Source of the DNA: Streptacidiphilus sp. 4-A2
Lineage (GTDB): Bacteria; Actinomycetota; Actinomycetes; Streptomycetales; Streptomycetaceae
Length of the DNA stretch: 64,000 nt
Assembly (NCBI GenBank): GCA_014284505.1
Contig: JAAFYY010000001.1
Span: 5,257,845 to 5,321,844 of the forward strand
Direction of reading: 5' to 3'
Numbering within the stretch: position 1 is the first letter of the stretch; each line of letters starts with the position of its first letter. Made by a program: the position numbers and the translations under genes. A model generated the notes under the pieces. That model was not told where the DNA came from. It saw only the letters and a program-made list of their open reading frames with translations, and did no database searches. Shown one piece after another: positions 7-43,006 of this stretch.

Positions 7-24
7 GGGCGCCGGACGGCGCCC
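7..24 (-). terminator. Possible malQ 3' hairpin
   Basis: GGGCGCC and GGCGCCC (7-13 and 18-24) form a 7-bp stem with a 4-base loop just beyond the malQ stop codon. Read in the gene's direction the hairpin is followed by GGGAAA rather than a U-run, so it would be a weak or U-less terminator of the kind common in actinobacteria. Confidence 0.3.
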
Positions 25-33510: not shown

Positions 33511-34640
33511 TCAGCGCAGGTGGGCGTTGACCTCGCGGGCCTCGGCCGCCAGCTCGGGGCACTCCAGCACGGTCACCCCGGCCTGCTCCAGCAGCTCCAC
33601 CCCCTGGCAGTCGGCCACGAACCGGGCGGGCTCCCGCCAGGCGAGCACCACCCGGCGGATCCCGGACGCCAGCACCCGCTGGGCGCAGGGCGTCGGGTCG
33701 GAAGCCCGGGCGCTGCACGGCTCCAGGGTGCTGTAGAGGGTGGCGCGCAGCCGCGGGTCGGCCGGGTCGATCCTGGCCAGCGCCACCTGCTCGGCGTGTA
33801 CGGCCGGGCCGGTCTCCCGGGAGTAGCCGCGCGCCAGCTCGGTGCCGTCCTCGGCGACGACCAGCGCGCCGACCGAGTAGGCGGTCTGCGACGGGGGGCA
33901 GGCCCGGGACAGCTCGACGGCCCGCGCCAGCGCCCGCCGGTCCGCCTCGGTCAGCCGCGCCGGATCCGGCGGCCTGGGCACCAGGTAGCGCAGCAGCGCG
34001 ATGTCGCCGACCGTCCTGGTCTCCGCCAGGACCATCCGGTGCAGCGCGTCCTGCGGGAAGCGCCCGGCGTTGACAAAGCGCGGGCGGCGTCGACGCCGAC
34101 GAAGAAGGGGGCCACCGCGAGCTGGATCTCGTCGGCCAGCCCGAGGTCAGGAACAGGGTGTGCACCGCGCTGCCGCCCTCGACCATCAGCCGGCGCACCC
34201 CGCGCCCGCCCAGGTCGTCCAGGACCGCGCCCAGGTCCAGCTCCGGACCCGTGCCGACGACCTCGGCCAGGCCGTCCAGCCGCTTCAGCCGGGGCAGCGC
34301 CCGGTCCGGGGCGTAGACCAGCCGCTCGTCGCCGTGGTGCCAGAAGCGCAGCTCCGGATCCAGCTCACCGCGGCCGGTGAGGACCACCCGCAGCGGATGC
34401 GCGGACAGCCCGAGCGCGACCCGTTCGGCGCGCCGCAGCGGCGAGTTGACCAGCAGCCGCGGATTGTCCCCGCGCAGCGTGCCCGCGCCGACCAGCACCG
34501 CGTCGCTGCCGGCCCGCAGCCGGTCCACCCGGTCCAGATCCTCCGGCCCGGAGAGCACCAGCCGCTCGGGGGGCGTCGTCGATGTGCCCGTCGACCGACA
34601 TGGCGACGCTGAGCAGGACATAGGGACGGCGTACGGTCAT
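33511..34640 (-). CDS. RibD-like fusion, reductase then deaminase (reversed order, frameshifted)
   Basis: About 376 residues combining a dihydrofolate-reductase-like RibD_C domain with a cytidine-deaminase-like domain. The N-terminal half shows VLLSVAMSVDGHIDD, GAGTLRGDNPRLLV and LMVEGGSAVHTLF. The C-terminal half shows VHAEQVALA, giving the zinc His and catalytic Glu, and EPCSARASDPTPC, giving the zinc Cys pair. Classical RibD has the deaminase first, so the order is inverted. Frames break near 34573, 34143 and 34083. ATG 34640 begins MTVRRPYVLL. A pyrimidine step of riboflavin synthesis, or a related pathway, is likely. No other rib gene is nearby. Confidence 0.8.
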
Positions 34641-34688
34641 GGTCCAACGGTGCCACACCGACGGCCGGGGCCGAAGGTGTGGATCACC

Positions 34689-34758
34689 ATCACTGTGGCT
34701 GAATCACTGCGGCCTGATCACTGCCGCTGAATCACTGCGTGTGGATCACTGCGTGTGA
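34689..34758. repeat. Five-copy 14-bp tandem array (ATCACTG units)
   Basis: ATCACTG(C/T) recurs at 34689, 34703, 34717, 34731 and 34745, exactly 14 bases apart, followed by six variable bases (GGCTGA-, CGCTGA- or GTGTGR-like). It fills the gap between the RibD-like start (34640, minus) and the phosphopantetheinyl transferase stop, and its last unit overlaps that stop codon. Confidence 0.85.
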
Positions 34759-35407
34759 ATCAGCAGGCGGTCGGAGCGCAGCGCGACGGCGGCGGCGAAG
34801 CCGGGGGCGCGGCCGTGTCGGCCAGGCTCCAGCCGACCGGGGCGGGCTGCCGGTCACCCACGTAGTCGAGGTCCATCGCCCGCCCGAGGCCGGTACCGAT
34901 GCCCTTGAGGTAGGCCTCCTTGCGGGTCCACAGCCGGGAGAAGGCGCTCAGGTCGTTGCCCACGGCCTTCAGCTCCGCCTGCTCGTCCGGGTGCAGCACG
35001 TCGACCAGGCCGTCGATCGCGTCCGCCGCGGGCCACTGCTCGACGTCCGCGCCCACCGGGTCGCCGGCGACAGCGACCATCGCCAGCGGTCCCGCGTGCG
35101 AGAGCGAGAAGTGCGGCGCCGAGGGGAGGTCCGCGAGCGCCGGACGGCCGTGCGGGCCGCCGCAGCACGGGCACACCTCACGGGTGAAGCGCAGCTGCTC
35201 CGGCGCGGTCTCGGTGTAGCGGGCGAGGATCCGGCGCAGCAGCAGATGCGAGGCGGCATAGCGGTCACGGTCCTGCGGGCGCACGAAGCGCGCCGCCCGG
35301 GCCTGCTCCTCGGCGTCCAGGACATCCGGCTCGCGCGGGATCCGGGCGGTCTCGCGCAGCCACAGGTGTACCTCGCCGGGCCCCGGCACGGTCAGTTGCT
35401 CGGTCAC
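34746..35407 (-). CDS. 4'-phosphopantetheinyl transferase, Sfp/HetI-type (3' frameshift)
   Basis: Transfers phosphopantetheine from CoA to carrier-protein serines. The family motifs GADVEQW (about residue 120) and FSRLWTRKEAYLKGIG (about 160-175) supply the metal-binding Asp and Glu and the Lys. PHFSLSHAG marks the N-terminal half. The read-through frame ends ...RCAPTAC, but one base in the G-run 34803-34807 restores a tail GFAAAVALRSDRLLIHTQ and a stop at 34746-34748, giving about 221 residues. The start is GTG 35407. It could serve the NRPS/PKS carriers beginning at 52 kb, though it is not in that operon. Confidence 0.87.
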
Positions 35408-35501
35408 GCCCCGAGCCTATCGGCTCGGCCGGGCCCAGGTCAGGGCTTTGATCAAGCCAGGACGCCGGGCCGGTTCCGCTGCCTTGGGGGACAATGCCCG
35501 C

Positions 35502-35948
35502 ATGGCGAGAGCGAAGACGAAGGCGACGAACGAGGCGACGACCGAGACGGCGGCCGGAGTGGCGGCGCCGGTGACCGGGCCGTGCCCGTGCGGGCTGGGG
35601 CGGCCGTACCAGGAGTGCTGCGGCGTCTACCATCAGGGCCGGGCCGCCGCGCCCACCGCCGAGGCGCTGATGCGCTCCCGCTACAGCGCCTTCGCCGTCG
35701 GCGACCAGCCCTACCTGCTGCGCAGCTGGCACCCCTCGACCCGGCCGGCCCGGCTGGAGCTCGACCCGGCCCAGCGCTGGGTGCGGCTGGAGGTGCTGTC
35801 GGTCCAGGGCGGCAGCGCTTTCCACAGCGAGGGCAGCGTCGAGTTCCGGGCGTACTGCCGCGAGCACGGGCAGGAGGACGTGCTGCACGAGCACAGCCGC
35901 TTCGTCCGCGACCAGGGCGCCTGGGTCTACCTGGACGGTGAGGGCTGA
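35502..35948 (+). CDS. YchJ family protein (UPF0225, SEC-C zinc motif)
   Basis: Intact 148-residue protein. A disordered Ala/Thr/Lys-rich start is followed by a SEC-C-like zinc motif CPCGLGRPYQECCG and YHQG (about residues 28-46), then a conserved YchJ core (ALMRSRYSAFAVGD, YLLRSWHPSTRP). The function of the family is unknown. ATG 35502 was preferred to the upstream GTG/ATG candidates because the family N-terminus fits. The stop overlaps the next start (TGATG). Confidence 0.85.
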   Translation: MARAKTKATNEATTETAAGVAAPVTGPCPCGLGRPYQECCGVYHQGRAAAPTAEALMRSRYSAFAVGDQPYLLRSWHPSTRPARLELDPAQRWVRLEVLSVQGGSAFHSEGSVEFRAYCREHGQEDVLHEHSRFVRDQGAWVYLDGEG

Positions 35949-36525
35949 TGGCCGCCGACGATCTCGAGACCGTCGCCTTCGAGTCGGCCGAGGAGTTCGA
36001 GGCCTGGCTCGCGGAGCACCACGCCGACTCCCCCGGGATCTGGCTGAAGCTCCGCAAGAAGGCCCCGGGCGTGCGCGCTCGACTATGCCCAGGCCCTGGA
36101 GTGCGCGCTCTGCTTCGGCTGGATCGACGGCCGCAAGGGCGCGCTGGACGACGCGTTCTGGTTGCAGCGGTTCACCCCGCGCACGGCCAGGAGCAAATGG
36201 TCGAAGATCAACCGGGACCGGGCGACCGCCCTGGCCGAGCAGGGCCGGATGCGTCCGGCGGGGCTGGCCGAGGTCGAGCGGGCCAGGGCCGACGGCCGCT
36301 GGGAGGCCGCCTACGACGGTGCCGGCCGCGCGACCGGTGCCGCCGGACCTGGCCGCGGCGCTGGCCGCGAACCCGGCCGCCGCCGCGTTCTTCGAGACCC
36401 TGGACGGCGCGAACCGGTACGCGGTGCTGTACCGGGTCCAGGACGCCAAGAGGCCGCAGACCCGGGCCCGGCGCATCGAGACCTTTGTCGCGATGCTGGC
36501 CGAGGGCCGGAAGCTGCACCCCTGA
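35948..36525 (+). CDS. YdeI/OmpD-associated family protein (frameshifted)
   Basis: About 193 residues of the YdeI-like family. Visible conserved pieces are EEFEAWLAEHH, GIWLKLRKKAPG, then in the next frame ALDYAQALECALCFGWIDGR and FTPRTARSKWSKINRDR. A C-terminal helical part (AANPAAAAFFETLDGANRYA) follows. Breaks lie near 36078 and 36325-36345. Its biochemical role is unsettled. The TGATG overlap with YchJ suggests co-translation. Confidence 0.8.
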
Positions 36526-36556
36526 GCCACTCCCGGACAGGCCCTACGCTCCTGCC

Positions 36557-37030
36557 ATGACGACGACCCACAGCTATGACGTGACGGTGGAGTGGACCGG
36601 CAACCTGGGTTCCGGCACCGGCAGTTACCGCTCGTACAGCCGCGACCACGAGCTGCTGGCGGACGGCCGGCCGCCGATCGCGGCCTCCTCCGACCCGGCC
36701 TTCCGCGGCGATCCGGCCCGCTGGAACCCGGAGCAGCTGCTGCTGGCCTCGGTGGCGCAGTGCCACCTGCTCTGGTACCTGCATCTGTGCGCGGCCGACG
36801 GCGTCGTCGTCACCGACTACGCCGACCGGGCCGAGGGCGTGATGACCATGGACGAGACCGGTGGCGGCGGCCAGTTCAGCTCGGTCACGCTGCACCCCGA
36901 GGTGACCGTGGCCGAGGAGTCGATGGTGGACAAGGCCCGCGCCCTGCACGGCGAGGTGCACGCGGTCTGCTTCATCGCCCGCTCGGTGAACTTCCCGATC
37001 GCGCACCGCCCGGTGATCACCGTCGGCTGA
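36557..37030 (+). CDS. OsmC-family peroxiredoxin-like protein
   Basis: Intact 157-residue thiol-dependent hydroperoxide-reductase-fold protein. The two redox Cys regions are AQCHLLWYLHLC (about residues 75-86) and HAVCFIARSV (about 138). ATG 36557 lies 31 bases after the YdeI-like stop with a weak ribosome site. It is probably the last gene of the YchJ-YdeI-OsmC run, since a strong terminator follows at 37068. Confidence 0.88.
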   Translation: MTTTHSYDVTVEWTGNLGSGTGSYRSYSRDHELLADGRPPIAASSDPAFRGDPARWNPEQLLLASVAQCHLLWYLHLCAADGVVVTDYADRAEGVMTMDETGGGGQFSSVTLHPEVTVAEESMVDKARALHGEVHAVCFIARSVNFPIAHRPVITVG

Positions 37031-37067
37031 CCCCGCGCCCCCTGAACCGCCGTACCTGAACCGCCGC

Positions 37068-37105
37068 CCCTGAACCGCCGCCGATCGCGGCGGTTCAGGG
37101 CTTTT
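37068..37105 (+). terminator. Strong intrinsic terminator after osmC-like gene
   Basis: CCCTGAACCGCCGC (37068-37081) pairs perfectly with 37087-37100 around a 5-base loop, and TTTT follows at 37102-37105. Two further CCTGAACCGCC copies lie just upstream, so the stem arm belongs to a small direct-repeat series. Confidence 0.88.
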
Positions 37106-37297
37106 CACGGCTTCTCACAGCTTTTGCGGGGATAGCGGCAAACGGCCGAGGCATGGGCGGGGGCTGTCTTGCCGATCGAGACCACGGGCGGGCGAAGCGA
37201 TCATGAAGCGGCCCGCCGTACGGCCCATCACACCCCACCCACCTGCGACGACGCCCTGCGCCGTGGGCGGCCCGGCAACGCCCGGGGCCGTTGGGGA

Positions 37298-37326
37298 TTG
37301 CACTGGCCTCCCCGCCCGGATAGCCT
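37298..37326 (+). promoter_or_regulatory. Promoter of the riboswitch / monooxygenase operon
   Basis: TTGCAC (37298-37303), 17 bases, TAGCCT (37321-37326). The predicted start near 37333 coincides with the 5' end of the riboswitch, which supports both calls. Confidence 0.65.
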
Positions 37327-37329
37327 CCG

Positions 37330-37442
37330 GTCAGGTTATGAGTGTCAGCGACAAGCCCTGGCTTGCTGACCGGCAACCCTCCTCACGCGGCGGGGTGCTC
37401 CAGGTGACGACCAGGCGGGCCCGTCCGGGTAGCGCAAGCGCA
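37330..37442 (+). promoter_or_regulatory. SAM-IV-type riboswitch
   Basis: Structured leader resembling the actinobacterial SAM-IV class. Conserved pieces in order are TATGAGTGTCAGCG, a GCC/GGC arm, GCTGACCGGCAACCCTCC (the CGGCAACC core binds SAM), GGCGGGGTGCTCC, AGGTGACGACC and a distal CGCAAGCG pseudoknot-like segment. TCAGC and GCTGA form an internal stem. SAM-binding leaders generally switch off sulfur-assimilation genes when SAM is plentiful. I recognise it from memory of the consensus; exact ends are uncertain. Confidence 0.82.
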
Positions 37443-37484
37443 GGAGCGAGCGGCTCGGGCCGGATCGAGGCGGAGGTGACGGCA

Positions 37485-37604
37485 GTGCAGGCACAGCAGA
37501 CGCAGGCGTTCGCCCGGATCGCACCGCACGGCGGCCTGGTCGGGTCCTACTCCCGCCGCCACATCGACCTCCAGCGCGTCGCCGGCGCCCTGTGTACGGG
37601 CTGA
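37485..37604 (+). CDS. Cys-containing leader peptide (uORF)
   Basis: A 39-residue uORF starting GTG 37485, eight bases after GGAGG (37472-37476). Its C-terminus, SRRHIDLQRVAGALCTG, matches the actinobacterial 'putative leader peptide' type (R-H-I-D-L ... Cys near the end) found before sulfur genes. A Cys codon (TGT) lies three codons before the stop, so ribosome stalling at low charged tRNA-Cys could alter the downstream RNA fold. It sits between the riboswitch and the monooxygenase genes. Confidence 0.75.
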   Translation: MQAQQTQAFARIAPHGGLVGSYSRRHIDLQRVAGALCTG

Positions 37605-37756
37605 CGACGCCCCTTCCGCACAGCCGAGGCATCCGGCGGCAGCGCTCCGCGCCGCAGCCGCGCCACTGACCCCTTCCCGAACCGGTCCGCCCCCGCCGCA
37701 TCGACGCGCGCCCGGCACCACCCCGGTTCGGTCATGTCCAGCGCCACCCACTCCGG

Positions 37757-37787
37757 GGCTGCGGGCGACATCAGCGTGCCCGCAGCC
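37757..37787 (+). promoter_or_regulatory. Leader hairpin before first monooxygenase gene
   Basis: GGCTGCGGGC (37757-37766) and GCCCGCAGCC (37778-37787) form a perfect 10-bp stem with an 11-base loop, ending 20 bases before ATG 37808. It may be an attenuation or translation-control element coupled to the leader peptide. The rest of 37605-37807 shows no gene. Confidence 0.5.
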
Positions 37788-37807
37788 GAGTAGAGAGCGA
37801 ACTCGTC

Positions 37808-39167
37808 ATGCCCTCCTCGTCCAGCTCCCCCGAGACCGGCTCCGCAGCAACCAGTTCCGCAGCGACCGGCTCCGCAGCGACCGGCAACCCAGAGGCCGGC
37901 TTCCCCCCGCCCGGCTCCGCCGACCCCTCCCCCGCCGCGCCGCTGCACCTGGCGGCGGCCCTCGACGGCGCCGGCTGGCACCCCGCCGCCTGGCGCGAAC
38001 CCCAGGCCCGCCCAAGGGAGTTGCTCAGCGCGCGCTACTGGAGCGACCTGGTCGCCGAGGCCGAGCGCGGGCTGCTGGACTTCGTCACCATCGAGGACTC
38101 GCTCAGCGTCCAGTCCTCGCTGCCGTACCAGGGCCCGGACGACCGCACCGACCAGGTGCGCGGGCGGCTGGACGCGGTGCTGACCGCCGCCCGGATCGCC
38201 CCGCTGAGCCGCCGGATCGGGCTGATCCCGACCGCGGTCACCACCCACACCGAGCCGTTCCACCTGTCCAAGGCCATCGCCACCCTCGACTACGTCAGCG
38301 GCGGGCGGGCCGGGATCCGGGTCCAGGTCTCCACCCGCCCGGACGAGACCGCGCACTTCGGCCGCCGCACCCTGCTGCCGCTGCCCTCCGACCAGGCCGG
38401 TTTCACCGCCCCCGAGTTCCAGTCGGCCGTCGCCGAGCGCTTCGACGAGGCCGAGGACTATGTCGAGGTGCTGCGCCGGCTCTGGGACAGCTGGGAGGAC
38501 GACGCGGAGATCCGCGACGCCGCCACCGGGCGCTTCGTGGACCGGCGCAAACTGCACTACATCGACTTCCAGGGACGGTACTTCAGCGTCAAGGGCCCGT
38601 CCATCACGCCCCGCCCGCCGCAGGGCCAGCCGCTGGTCACCGCGCTCGCCCACTCCGCCGTGCCGTACCGGCTGGTCGGCCGTGCCGCCGACGTCGGCTA
38701 CACCACCCCGCGGGACGCCGCCCAGGCCCGCGCGGCCGTGGCGCAGATCCGCGCCGCGCAGGCCGCCGCCGGGCGCTCCGGGGAGACCGTGCACGTCTTC
38801 GGCGACCTGGTGGTCTTCCTGGACGACCAGGCGGCCACCGCCACGGCCCGCAAGGACCGGCTGGACCAGCTGGCGCAGGCCGAGTACACCAGCGACGCAC
38901 TGGTGTTCACCGGCACCGCCGGCAACTCGCTGATCTGCTGCTGGAGTTGCGGCAGGCCGGGCTGAGCGGCTTCCGGCTGCGGCCGGGTGCGCTGCCGCAC
39001 GACCTGGAGCAGATCACCCGGCGGCTGGTGCCGGAGCTCCAGCGCCGCGGCGCCTTCCGGCAGGCCTACGAGGCGGACACGCTGCGCGCCTGCTGGGGCT
39101 GCCGCGGCCGGAGAACCGCTATGCCCCCACCGCTGCCGCCGCCGCTGTTGCCGCCGCCGCCCGCTGA
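37808..39167 (+). CDS. LLM-class flavin-dependent monooxygenase 1 (frameshifted)
   Basis: TIM-barrel flavoprotein of about 453 residues, first gene of the riboswitch operon. A Ser/Ala/Thr/Gly repeat tail of some 45 residues precedes the luciferase-like domain (LLDFVTIEDSLSVQSS, RRIGLIPTAVTTHTEPF, ATLDYVSGGRAGIRVQVS). Breaks near 38930 and 39087 move the frame; the restored end reads GLSGFRLRPGALPHDLEQI and PENRYAPTAAAA, with a stop at 39165-39167. Such enzymes oxidise or desulfurise organic substrates using reduced flavin supplied by a reductase. Substrate unknown. Confidence 0.82.
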
Positions 39168-39190
39168 CGCCCGGAAGGACTGTCCGACCC

Positions 39191-40572
39191 ATGAGCAAGC
39201 CCGTCAAGCAGATCCACCTCGCCGCGCACTTCCCGGCGTCAACAACACCACTGTCTGGAGCGATCCGCGCTCCGGCAGCCATATCGACTTCCAGTCCTTC
39301 GTGCACTTCGCGCAGACCGCGGAGCGTGCCAAGTTCGACTTCCTGTTCCTGGCCGAGGGGCTGCGGCTGCGCGAACAGGGCGGCGAGATCTACGACCTGG
39401 ACGTCGTCGGCCGTCCGGACACCTTCACCGTGCTGGCCGCGCTGGCCGCGGTCACCGACCGGCTGGGGCTGACCGGCACCATCAACTCCACCTTCAACGA
39501 GCCCTATGAGGTCGCCCGGCAGTTCGCCAGCCTCGACCACCTGTCGGCCGGCCGCGCCGCCTGGAACGTGGTCACCTCCTGGGACGCCTTCACCGGCGAG
39601 AACTTCCGCCGGGGCGGCTTCCTGGCCCAGGGCGACCGCTACTCGCGGGCCGCCCAGTTCCTGCGTACCGCATGGGAGTTGTTCGACTCCTGGCGCGGTG
39701 ACGAGATCGTCGCCGACAAGGAGTCGGGGATCTTCCTGGCCGACCCGGGCGCCGGGTCCTTCCGCCACCAGGACGAACACTTCGACATCAGCGGGCAGTT
39801 CAACGTCCCACGGGCCCCGCAGGGGCGGCCGGTGATCTTCCAGGCCGGGGACTCGGACGAGGGCCGGGAGTTCGCCGCCTCCACCGCCGACGCGATCTTC
39901 AGCCGGCACAGCACGCTGGACGCCGGGCAGGCCTTCTACCGCGACGTGAAGGGCCGCCTGGCCCGCTACGGCCGCCGCCCCGACCAGCTGCTGATCCTCC
40001 CGGCGGCCACCTTCGTCCTCGGCGACACCGACGCCGAGGCCGCGGAGACCGCGCACGAGGTGCGGTTGCAGCAGTTCAGCGGGCAGACCTCGATCAAGCT
40101 GCTGGAGCAGGTGTGGAACCGCGACCTGTCCGGCTACGACCCGGACGGCCCGCTGCCCGCGATCGACCCGCTGCCGGGCGAGCACACCCTGGCCCGGGGC
40201 CGGGCCAGCGTCCGCACCGGCCGCGACCCGGTCGAGCTGGCCCGGGAGTGGCGGGCGCGGGCCGAGGCCGAGAAGCTCTCCATCCGGCAGCTGATGGCGA
40301 CCGTCGGCGGACGGCAGTCCTTCATCGGCTCCCCGGCCACCGTCGCCGAGACCATCAACCGCTTTGTGCAGGAGGACGCCAGCGACGGCTTCATCCTGGT
40401 CCCCCACATCACCCCCACCGGCCTGGACGGGTTCGCCGACCAGGTGGTCCCGCTGCTCCAGGAGCGCGGCGTGTTCCGCACCGAGTACCAGGGCGAGACC
40501 CTGCGCGACCACCTCGGCCTGGACCGGCCCTCCGTGCTCGCGCCCGCCGGGGCCGGGGCGGTGGCCCGGTGA
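39191..40572 (+). CDS. LLM flavin-dependent monooxygenase 2, NtaA/SnaA/DszA type (one frameshift)
   Basis: About 461 residues of the NtaA/SnaA/SoxA(DszA) group, which includes dibenzothiophene-sulfone and nitrilotriacetate monooxygenases. It starts MSKPVKQIHLAAHFPG; one G near 39229 joins this to VNNTTVWSDPRSGSHIDF. Group signatures are AERAKFDFLFLAEGL, STFNEPYEVARQFASLDHLS, AAWNVVTSWD, PVIFQAGDSDEGREFAA and GSPATVAETI. The stop overlaps the next gene's GTG (GTGA 40569-40572). The SAM-controlled context favours organosulfur breakdown, but this is inference. Confidence 0.86.
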
Positions 40573-41672
40573 AGTTCCTGGCCATCACCCTGATCACGCA
40601 CACCCCCGACCCGGTCACCGGGGCGCTGACGCCCACCGGCGAGCGGTTCCGCGAAGTGCTGGACAACGCGCTGCTGGCCGAGGAGCTGGGCTTCGACGGT
40701 TTCGGAGTCGGCGAACGGCACGAGCGGCCGTTCATCTCCTCCTCACCGCCGGTGCTGCTCAGCCATATCGCCGCGCTCACCTCCCGGATCCGGCTGTTCA
40801 CCGCGGTGACCACGCTCAGCCTGCTGGACCCGGTGCGGGCCTACGAGGACTACGCCACCCTGGACCACCTCTCCGGCGGCCGGCTGGAGCTGATCATCGG
40901 CAAGGGCAACGGCTCGGCGCAGCGCGACCTGTTCCAGGTCACCCCCGAGGACCAGTGGGACCGCAACGCCGAGAGCTACGAGCTGTTCCGGCAGATCTGG
41001 CGCAACGACAAGGTCACCGCGCAGGCCCGGTTCCGGCCCTCGCTGCACGAGGCCGAGGTGTGGCCGCGGCCGCTGCAACGGCCGGTCCGGGTCTGGCACG
41101 GCAGCGCGACCAGCAAGGAGTCGGCGGACCTGGCCGCGCGCTACGGCGACCCGCTGTTCTCGGCCAATGTGACCAACCCGATCGAGCCCTACGCCGAGCT
41201 GGTCCGCCACTACCGCGAGCGCTGGGCGCACTACGGCCACGACCCGGCGGCGGCCGCGGTCGGCGCGGGCAGCGCCGGCTACTACGCGACCCCCAGGTCG
41301 CAGGACGCGGTGAACGCCTACCGCCCGGTGTTCGAGGCGCAGACGCGGATGTGGAAGCAGCACGGGCAGGAGCCGGTCTTCAGCTCGCTGGAGGACTTCG
41401 TCGAGCGCAGCTCGGCGCTGATCGGCAGCCCGCAGCAGGTGATCGAGAAGGTGCACCGCTACCACCAGCAGTTCGGCCACGCCGTGCAGCATCTGCACGC
41501 CGAGCCAGGTGGATTGACGGTCAGTCAGCACCGGGGTGCGCTGGAGCTGTTCCAGTCGGAGATCGCGCCGGTGCTGCGCCGGGAGATCCCGGACCCGCCG
41601 TGGCCCTGGGCCCCGGTCGACCCCTCCGAGCCCGTCCGCACCGCCGCCGATCCCGCCGCCGTGTCCGTCTGA
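40569..41672 (+). CDS. LLM flavin-dependent monooxygenase 3
   Basis: Intact 367-residue luciferase-like protein with a GTG start at 40569, overlapping the previous stop. Motifs include VKFLAITLITHTPDP at the N-terminus, LGFDGFGVGERHERPF (about residue 42), YATLDHLSGGRLELIIGKGNG and VWHGSATSKESADLAARYGD, the last covering the flavin phosphate region. It is one of the few undamaged genes in this operon, showing that the reading-frame noise is local. Substrate unknown. Confidence 0.88.
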   Translation: MKFLAITLITHTPDPVTGALTPTGERFREVLDNALLAEELGFDGFGVGERHERPFISSSPPVLLSHIAALTSRIRLFTAVTTLSLLDPVRAYEDYATLDHLSGGRLELIIGKGNGSAQRDLFQVTPEDQWDRNAESYELFRQIWRNDKVTAQARFRPSLHEAEVWPRPLQRPVRVWHGSATSKESADLAARYGDPLFSANVTNPIEPYAELVRHYRERWAHYGHDPAAAAVGAGSAGYYATPRSQDAVNAYRPVFEAQTRMWKQHGQEPVFSSLEDFVERSSALIGSPQQVIEKVHRYHQQFGHAVQHLHAEPGGLTVSQHRGALELFQSEIAPVLRREIPDPPWPWAPVDPSEPVRTAADPAAVSV

Positions 41673-41706
41673 GACCGACCCCGCACAACCGAAAGGGGCA
41701 ACGACC

Positions 41707-42835
41707 ATGAGCACCACCCCGCTTGCCGTCCTCGACCTGGTGCCGATCTCCTCCGGGTCGAACGCCACCGAGGCGCTGCGCAACACCATCGACCTGGCCC
41801 GGCAGGCCGAGCGGCTCGGCTATGCCCGCTACTGGTTCGCCGAGCACCACCTCAACCCGGGCGTCGCCGGAACCTCCCGGCGGTGCTGCTGGCGCTGACC
41901 GCGTCGGCGACCTCGACCATCCGGATCGGCTCCGGCGCGGTCCAGCTGGGCCACCGGACCGCACTGTCCACGGTCGAGGAGTTCGGCCTGATCGACGCTC
42001 TCCACCCGGGCCGGCTCGACCTGGGCCTGGGCCGCTCCGGCGGCCCGCCCCGGCCGCGCCGGTCCGCGAGCGGCACTGGTCGGCGCGGTGCCGGTGGTGG
42101 ACGGCCGGACCCCGAACGGGCTGCTGATACCGCCGAAATTCTCCTTCGCCCAGTTGCTGGGCTCGCCCCGCTTCGCGCTGCACAAGGAGCTGCTGGGCAG
42201 CCGGGCGCCCAGCCCCAGCCCTACACCGACCAGATCGGCGACATCCTGGCACTGCTGGCCGGGACCTTCCGCGCCTCGAACGGGGAGCCGGCCCGGATCG
42301 TGCCGGGCGAGGGCGCGGACCTCCAGGTGTGGATCCTCGGCAGCAGCGGCGGCGAGAGCGCCGAGGCGGCCGGTGCCAACGGGCTGCGCTTCGCCGCGAA
42401 CTACCACGTCAGCCCGGGGACCGTGCTGGAGGCGGCCGAGGGCTACCGGGCGGCCTTCCGTCCGTCGGCGGTACTGGACCGGCCGTATGTGACGGTCTCC
42501 GCCGACGTGGTGGTGGCCGGGGACGAGGCCACCGCGCGGGAGCTGGCCACCGGATACGGCCCATGGGTGCGCAGCATCCGCACCGCTGAGGGCGCGATCC
42601 CGTTCCCGACCCCGGACGAGGCCCGGGCCCTGCCCTGGACGGAGGAGGACCGCGCGCTGGTGGCCGACCGGGTGGACACCCAGTTCGTGGGCACCGCCAG
42701 GCAGGTGGCCGACCAGCTGGAGCGGCTGCGGGACGCGACCGGCGCCGACGAGCTGGTGGTCACCACCATCACCCATGGCCACGCCACCGGGTGCGCTCCT
42801 ACGAGCTGCTGGCCGAGGAGGGGCGTCGCCGCTGA
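41707..42835 (+). CDS. LLM flavin-dependent oxidoreductase 4, MsnO8-like (frameshifted)
   Basis: About 378 residues of the luciferase-like group with motif LGYARYWFAEHHLNPG near residue 40. Further pieces are ASATSTIRIGSGAVQLGHRT, HPGRLDLGLGRSGG, VWILGSSGGESAEAA and VDTQFVGTARQVADQLE. ATG 41707 has AAAGGGG about ten bases upstream. Frames break near 41878, 42050, 42210 and 42785; the restored tail reads RSYELLAEE. The stop is 42833-42835. It completes a four-gene monooxygenase set with no flavin reductase or sulfonate importer visible. Confidence 0.8.
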
Positions 42836-42869
42836 AGCGATCCGCGCGAATCTGAGCAATCTGCGCGAT

Positions 42870-42896
42870 CCGCGCACTCCGCGCACTCCGCGCACT
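42870..42896. repeat. 9-bp tandem repeat CCGCGCACT x3
   Basis: Three perfect consecutive copies shortly after the monooxygenase operon, in a 252-base gap that otherwise holds the palindromic operators for the next operon. Confidence 0.75.
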
Positions 42897-43006
42897 CTGC
42901 GCGCGGGGTGCGCCCGCCGCCGGGGAGGGCCAACTGCCGCTCCCGGCGGCTTTCTGCGTTCGGGCCAGAGCACCGGGCGGTCGGCGGCGGTCACCGGAAA
43001 AAGGAT

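Follow-up and report, generated by a model that had tools for sequence, protein, structure and literature searches.

The locus lies in a 64-kb window, by which we mean the whole stretch of DNA analysed, and comprises a promoter box, an SAM-IV riboswitch aptamer, a short leader peptide ORF with its own Shine-Dalgarno sequence (SD), an untranslated C-rich stretch and a hairpin, placed in front of three monooxygenase genes (Table 1). The original prediction had put a TTGCAC-17-TAGCCT promoter box, a 39-residue uORF and a flavin monooxygenase operon here. The box was found 7 nt ahead of the aptamer, the uORF runs from GTG to a TGA ending at 37604 and its product ends in ...RRHIDLQRVAGALCTG, and the TIGR03860 and PF00296 matches identify the genes as luciferase-like flavin monooxygenases, which make up an operon of a type that serves sulfur scavenging.

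The frame of the first gene seems broken near its 3' end and that of the second near its 5' end. Conserved-gene frames break repeatedly within window positions 34000-43000, for example near 38930 and 39240. The genome (9.05 Mb in 4 contigs) is scored as 76.5% complete, and this, together with the repeated breaks, is what numerous small indels in the assembly would be expected to produce. Past 41,700, no family was found in one stretch scanned.

Table 1. Features of the leader region and of the genes that follow it, in window coordinates.
Feature	Position	Strand	Details
Promoter box TTGCAC-17-TAGCCT	37298..37326	+	TTGCAC 37298-37303, 17-nt spacer, TAGCCT 37321-37326; 7 nt upstream of aptamer
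SAM-IV riboswitch aptamer, RF00634	37334..37446	+	96.4 bits vs gathering 38; model 1-116 of 116
Shine-Dalgarno GGAGGTGA of leader ORF	37472..37479	+	sequence
Leader peptide ORF, 39 codons, GTG start, stop included	37485..37604	+	NF042934, 35.6 bits vs cut-off 27
Conserved leader motif RHIDLQRVAGALC	37557..37595	+	final codon 37593-37595 is UGU
C-rich, G-poor untranslated stretch 3' of leader stop	37605..37756	+	possible Rho loading region, suggested by composition
Hairpin, 10 bp, 11-nt loop	37757..37787	+	arms 37757-37766 and 37778-37787, 10/10 pairs; two orthologues examined, without conservation
First gene, NtaA/DmoA-like FMN-dependent LLM monooxygenase	37808..38965	+	TIGR03860 227.8 bits, under cut-off 279.7; Pfam Bac_luciferase PF00296 103.1 bits
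Second gene, NtaA/DmoA family monooxygenase	39191..40572	+	TIGR03860 406.3 bits, above cut-off, over 39253-40569
Third gene, LLM class monooxygenase	40545..41672	+	best match TIGR04036 258.3 bits, under cut-off 479.1

The assignment of the aptamer to the SAM-IV type was borne out by a covariance model search, where the full-length match (E 2.5e-16) is the sole one at gathering level to any Rfam family within the window. A search of the own genome recovered it at the same place (8.3e-18) as one of four SAM-IV matches, and a leader of the pattern RH[VI]DL..V..ALC follows three of these four and is absent after the fourth. SAM riboswitches as a class lower expression upon binding of SAM. Masking of the leader SD by the SAM-free aptamer was considered and rejected, since in free folding the aptamer lowered SD accessibility in 14 and raised it in 12 of 48 cases, an inconsistent direction. 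RNAalifold detected no shared structure between the aptamer and the leader start in 51 sequences. Short hairpins are visible there by eye in some loci and are missing from others (e.g. L013, L022, L023).

A box of the form TTGnnn-16..19-TAnnnT stands just 5' of the aptamer in 39 of 48 elements composed of SAM-IV and leader, compared with 10 of 2400 shuffles. In two loci orthologous to that of the window, L006 and L152, the box is closely similar to the one described here. A generic sigma-70 scan of 37200-37900 found no promoter.

The proposed Cys leader peptide scores above the cut-off of a curated NCBIfam family, NF042934 (cis_reg_atten, “putative leader peptide”), which it matches with residues 22-37. 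Scores for the Cys-rich leader families Ms4527A (NF042936) and Ms5788A (NF042933) are 19.7 and 15.6 bits, each under the cut-off of 45. A run of regulatory codons, as in the classical amino-acid attenuator, is absent, and the leader has one Cys codon among its 39. In the SD region of 52 related leaders, GGTGA occurs in 40 and AGGTGA in 28. The related leaders have 23 to 45 codons from start to Cys and 2 to 26 from Cys to stop, and the motif is ungapped in all 138 profile matches (at least 14 bits and reaching profile position 16).

Several leaders depart from this form. In L078 (2031-2176, + strand), SAM-IV is followed by a leader with the same motif and without any Cys (...HIDLLRVSSAY before the stop), its end being RRLHIDLLRVSSAY and stop. 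Eight leaders (in L077, L090, L106, L118, L121, L123, L129, and L142) carry RVCSA and lack the terminal Cys. The first genes at six of the eight loci fall into one cluster; its representative, from L129, contains a glutathione S-transferase C-terminal domain. In L033 (3001-3109, - strand), an intact SAM-IV precedes an apparently degraded leader (MQTCRSAGSALCPR...) in which RHVDL is lost and ALC is kept.

The association of aptamer and leader recurs well beyond the window. Fourteen genomes of the genus hold 47 SAM-IV matches, and at least 29 of them are accompanied by a same-strand NF042934 match up to about 260 nt downstream (23 above the cut-off and 6 below it; places compared by hand, among the matches listed). 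Chance alone would give about 0.01 pairs in the genus, as calculated from 194 listed NF042934 matches, 47 SAM-IV matches and ~ 125 Mb. Other SAM-IV elements of the genus are the one with the degraded-looking leader in L033, 14 leaderless ones before an aminotransferase-like gene, recognized by eye from its likeness to the class-V aminotransferase of L038 (Aminotran_5), and the unclassified one in L039. In the published Streptomyces case, the gene goes under the name of cysteine desulfurase. In L007 and L014, SAM-IV lies directly 5' of a GNAT-like gene (Acetyltransf_1 in L007), with no leader.

In a wider chosen set, the leader motif was found within 360 nt downstream of at least 53 of 107 distinct aptamers. 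These were collected with R1, a covariance model built for the purpose from 20 aptamers, which gave 134 matches, 27 of them removed as repeats of identical aptamers. The 53 are a lower bound because the regular expression misses the leaders of L081 (+ strand) and L041 and an odd leader after the third SAM-IV of L112. The 107 aptamers are a non-random sample, as L076-L142 were chosen by DNA pattern and R1 was not applied to L046-L075. The latter were the best matches of an earlier search, among which the regular expression found no leader, yet L065 has one. In all 53 pairs the two parts lie on the same strand, with 48 to 127 nt from the aptamer end to the motif.

In the control based on regular expressions, the motif occurred within 500 nt downstream of at least 48 of 128 SAM-IV elements, and it was met in 0/122 cases upstream, 0/128 on the other strand, and 0/2560 in shuffles. 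Because P-H-I-D-L leaders and aptamers with AGCAACCC escape these expressions, 48/128 is a lower bound, as is the count of leaders labelled with SAM-IV (52/111) used below.

Named members of the pair belong to Streptomyces, Streptacidiphilus, Kitasatospora, Actinacidiphila, Peterkaempfera, and Kineococcus. In addition, L199 and L186 (genome G340, family f28) have a leader with the end SRRHVDLVRVASCTCR about 70 nt past a SAM-IV match that is cut by the locus end, and this pair indicates that the association is not confined to the family of the window. In four loci (L005, L013, L015, and L022), two units of SAM-IV and leader lie back to back, one on each strand; the two units of L005, like those of L022, lead into an ABC permease gene on one side and an LLM gene on the other.

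Independence of the two putative sensors, as originally predicted, agrees with the occurrence of each part alone before relatives of the window's first gene in other loci. Both parts precede such relatives, all of one first-gene cluster, in the window, L006, L065, L078 (- strand), and L114, among others. SAM-IV without the leader motif stands before an LLM gene in eight cases (L080 and L109 on the + strand, L115 on the - strand, L125, L126, L132, L138, and L141), from Klenkia, Flexivirga, Kineococcus, and Rhodococcus. The clearest leader-only case is L152, which keeps the leader and a window-like promoter box (GGGGATTGCC...TAGCCT) and shows no SAM-IV at E values up to 0.1. A leader directly upstream, with no same-strand SAM-IV in the locus, was found in six more loci of one genus in the same family (L164, L165, L166, L169, L170, and L171).

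Orthologues of the first gene are present in 38 of 197 genomes, and 30 loci were obtained, including the window. When the 29 orthologue loci were searched for SAM-IV, L171 had it on the opposite strand; in L186 and L187 it lay some 0.9 to 1.4 kb upstream and did not adjoin the gene. The leader is directly upstream in 6 of 18 orthologue upstream regions and absent there in 12; relatives of the gene that carry neither part also exist.

Behind the pairs of SAM-IV and leader (at least 52 of 111 leaders), the first genes belong mainly to two clusters, one with an amino-acid-type ABC permease (25 genes) and that of the LLM genes (15). Judged by their representatives, the smaller clusters include those of a GNAT protein, an SBP_bac_5 protein and an FAD-dependent (DAO) oxidase. 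Representative first genes behind leaders without SAM-IV encode a ThiS-like protein, a rhodanese and a nitrite/sulfite reductase. The representatives suit the uptake of sulfur or of amino acids, and from these families sulfur acquisition and cysteine supply may be the common theme of the downstream genes.

The most regular feature of the leader is its terminal Cys codon. A profile of the leaders gave 111 of them in 81 loci, after exclusion of matches below 14 bits, those not reaching position 16, those with more than 30 residues to the stop and repeated DNA. The terminal Cys of the motif is present in 103 of 111, the remaining 8 being of the RVCSA type, and it is encoded by TGT in 103 of 103. 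In a second set, composed of 32 leaders from 30 loci, 30 genomes and 14 families of the class (2 leaders overlap the first set), the terminal Cys is TGT in 32 of 32. NF042934 itself is present in 91 of 148 genomes of the class.

Elsewhere TGT is the minor codon. Among the 327 Cys codons counted in 113 coding ORFs of leader-bearing loci, 49 are TGT. In the first set, Cys at the 16 motif positions ahead of the terminal one is encoded by 28 TGC and 1 TGT (Fisher 8e-28), and all other Cys in the last 45 residues of the frames by 87 TGC and 31 TGT (Fisher 3e-35); the leaders are kin, which overstates independence and makes both probabilities too small. In the second set, TGC outnumbers TGT by 35 to 7 at the other Cys of the motif and by 16 to 7 at Cys after it. 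RNA structure as a cause of this constancy was rejected, as no shared structure was seen at the codon (103 sites, mean z -0.26). One tRNA-Cys (anticodon GCA) decodes both UGU and UGC, the former by wobble. The constancy of UGU at the terminal position, compared with the prevalence of UGC at the other Cys of the motif, points to sensing at the decoding of UGU, and decoding of this codon is probably under selection, as it would be if the signal were the time that the ribosome waits there.

With regard to the output step, the hairpin, counted as a part of the leader in the original prediction, exists as a 10-bp stem 20 nt before the first-gene ATG at 37808. At the corresponding place L006 has a 7-bp stem, the longest stem in L152 is one of 7 bp situated elsewhere, and the hairpin was rejected as a conserved part. 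When the 203-nt interval was block-shuffled 300 times, a perfect stem of at least 10 pairs appeared twice, and local folding energy at the hairpin is ordinary (z -0.58). Intrinsic termination was likewise rejected, as 37200-37900 has no terminator-like site and the hairpin is without a U-tract.

A compositional change was observed at the leader stop. In 20-nt bins of related leaders, C rises there from 0.37 to 0.51 and G falls from 0.32 to 0.25. Mean (C-G)/(C+G) over 100-nt stretches after the stop is 0.26 (n = 101), versus 0.09 in coding windows (n = 546); the mean after leaderless aptamers is 0.05 (n = 75). A skew of 0.2 is passed by 71% of the post-leader stretches and by 21% of coding windows. 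C exceeds G on into the first gene. Such a stretch, which would be expected of a Rho-dependent leader of the TnaC kind, fits loading of Rho once the ribosome has left, but its composition is not specific to Rho.

Cysteine leaders have been described before. According to the available part of Seliverstov 2005 (PMC1262725), those of Mycobacterium, P. acnes and B. longum are short ORFs located 5' of sulfur genes, with Cys codons close to the end; a conserved terminator is absent and Rho was suggested for Cys leaders, including the mycobacterial ones. As far as that text goes, the leader studied here resembles them in the Cys near the end of a short ORF, in the sulfur genes and in the lack of a conserved terminator, and differs by its single Cys in place of runs of Cys codons, its SD and its riboswitch-bearing 5' leader, about 150 nt long. 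Polycysteine and leaderless ORFs are named in the title of Canestrari 2020, as cited in the available text of PMC13236596. From what the accessible part of PMC8632094 gives, uORFC-8-2 before cysS of Rhodobacterales has tandem Cys codons with UGC dominant and a U-run terminator. It is likewise a Cys-codon attenuator, but differs in these features and belongs to a different phylum (alphaproteobacterial).

The C-rich shift after the leader, taken together with the Rho proposal of 2005, favours a reading in which a ribosome waiting at UGU shields the RNA from Rho and SAM-IV gates entry into the leader. We regard a two-input 5' leader of this kind, in which SAM-IV is the gate and Cys-tRNA-dependent waiting protects against Rho, as only slightly short of evenly probable. 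Binding of SAM would lower output, most likely by blocking the ribosome start on the leader ORF or by early end of transcription. When the leader is translated and Cys-tRNA is scarce, the ribosome would wait at the slow UGU codon, perhaps with the aid of the RHxDLxRVxxAL stretch, which would sit at a constant distance within the exit tunnel. The waiting ribosome would cover C-rich RNA past the stop, by which Rho would be blocked and the operon made. With sufficient cysteine, the ribosome would finish and leave, and the message would be ended. The operon would be fully on only if SAM and charged tRNA-Cys were both low, and the AND/OR logic suggested in the original prediction may take this form.

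Points against the two-input view are the single Cys codon, which is few for a codon counter, the Cys-less SAM-IV-linked leader of L078 (+ strand) and the 8 of 111 leaders that lack the terminal Cys, the 12 of 18 orthologue upstream regions with no leader directly upstream, the lack of a consistent effect of the aptamer on the SD, and the C-rich composition, which is weak evidence for Rho. Control could instead be translational, if RNA upstream paired over the ribosome-binding site of the first gene once the leader is finished and a ribosome waiting at the Cys codon prevented this pairing, as proposed for SD-occluding uORFs. The gene start of the window is indeed masked, with an accessibility of 0.26 for the true leader, below all 8 codon-shuffled ones (0.52), and of 0.53 in a proxy for the stalled ribosome. 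Removal of leader RNA in 98 leaders, a comparison made without the codon-shuffle control, raises gene-start accessibility in 45 and lowers it in 11. However, masking as in the window was not seen in the orthologues L006 and L152, and over 91 leaders the true sequence gave no stronger masking than its codon-shuffled versions (accessibility lower in 32 and higher in 29, P 0.11), so that gene-start masking was rejected as a general mechanism and we find translational attenuation rather unlikely.

It is also unlikely, in our estimate, that the nascent RHxDLxRVxxAL chain itself stalls the ribosome, perhaps by sensing a free metabolite such as cysteine, with the Cys codon only setting the place. Cys-less members and the ungapped motif with its loose flanks speak for an arrest peptide, as does conservation of amino acids despite synonymous change, since in 44 distinct motifs Asp is encoded by 27 GAC and 17 GAT and Ala by four codons; the strict terminal UGU, on the other hand, is a constraint at the level of the codon and not of the peptide. 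That SAM-IV is the sole regulator, and the leader a passive ORF or one that helps reinitiation, would suit the leaderless SAM-IV elements that other genera have upstream of such a gene. We hold this to be very improbable given the leader without aptamer in L152 and the six additional loci, and a motif and codon constant across 30 genomes and 14 families. Occurrence of each part alone elsewhere could also mean that the two are adjacent by chance or merely share a promoter, and regulate different outputs. The regular same-strand spacing of the 53 pairs and the excess of observed over expected pairs in the genus make this the explanation to which we give hardly any credence.

Two signals are read by one leader in mgtA, which has the MgtL peptide. 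In the available parts of the respective papers, contiguous riboswitches act as dual-input RNA leaders (PMC12452182) and the SAM-I of Xanthomonas also senses uncharged initiator tRNA (PMC7270179). Two signals are likewise combined in the leader proposed here; in so far as these texts and the mgtA case extend, none of them pairs SAM-IV with a cysteine leader peptide. Published SAM-IV riboswitches share with ours the full-length covariance match, the position 5' of sulfur-related genes and the occurrence in Actinomycetota. Examples given in the accessible portions of two reports are S. lividans SLIV_26975, with SAM-IV before a cysteine desulfurase (PMC8079986), and S. clavuligerus CRV15_21540, with SAM-IV and a premature transcript before an aminotransferase class V-fold PLP enzyme (PMC8269248). 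Those portions mention no leader peptide, whereas in the window a leader ORF is interposed. The likeness to NF042934, compared by family name and scores, consists in a score above the curated cut-off and an end in the conserved Cys.

SAM-IV and NF042934 are each already known families. No report of their pairing or of the UGU rule was recognized in searches of the open-licence PMC literature, which omits most subscription papers, and a tandem of riboswitch and leader peptide with a codon rule is apparently unreported as far as we have seen. In a wider view, which we put forward as possible rather than probable, one obligatory UGU and an arrest-prone nascent chain would constitute a widespread actinobacterial cysteine sensor in which wobble decoding is measured. 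SAM-IV would have been added upstream in some lineages as a two-input gate on sulfur scavenging, and the modules lost or kept independently.

If decoding at the constant UGU is what is measured, a synonymous base change there should weaken sensing, and a leader-peptide family so far named computationally gains through this codon a clear experimental handle. If the two-input reading is true, the logic can be tested directly on natural versions that place one or two sensors ahead of operons of one kind, and SAM and cysteine, the two ends of sulfur metabolism, would be combined in one short RNA.
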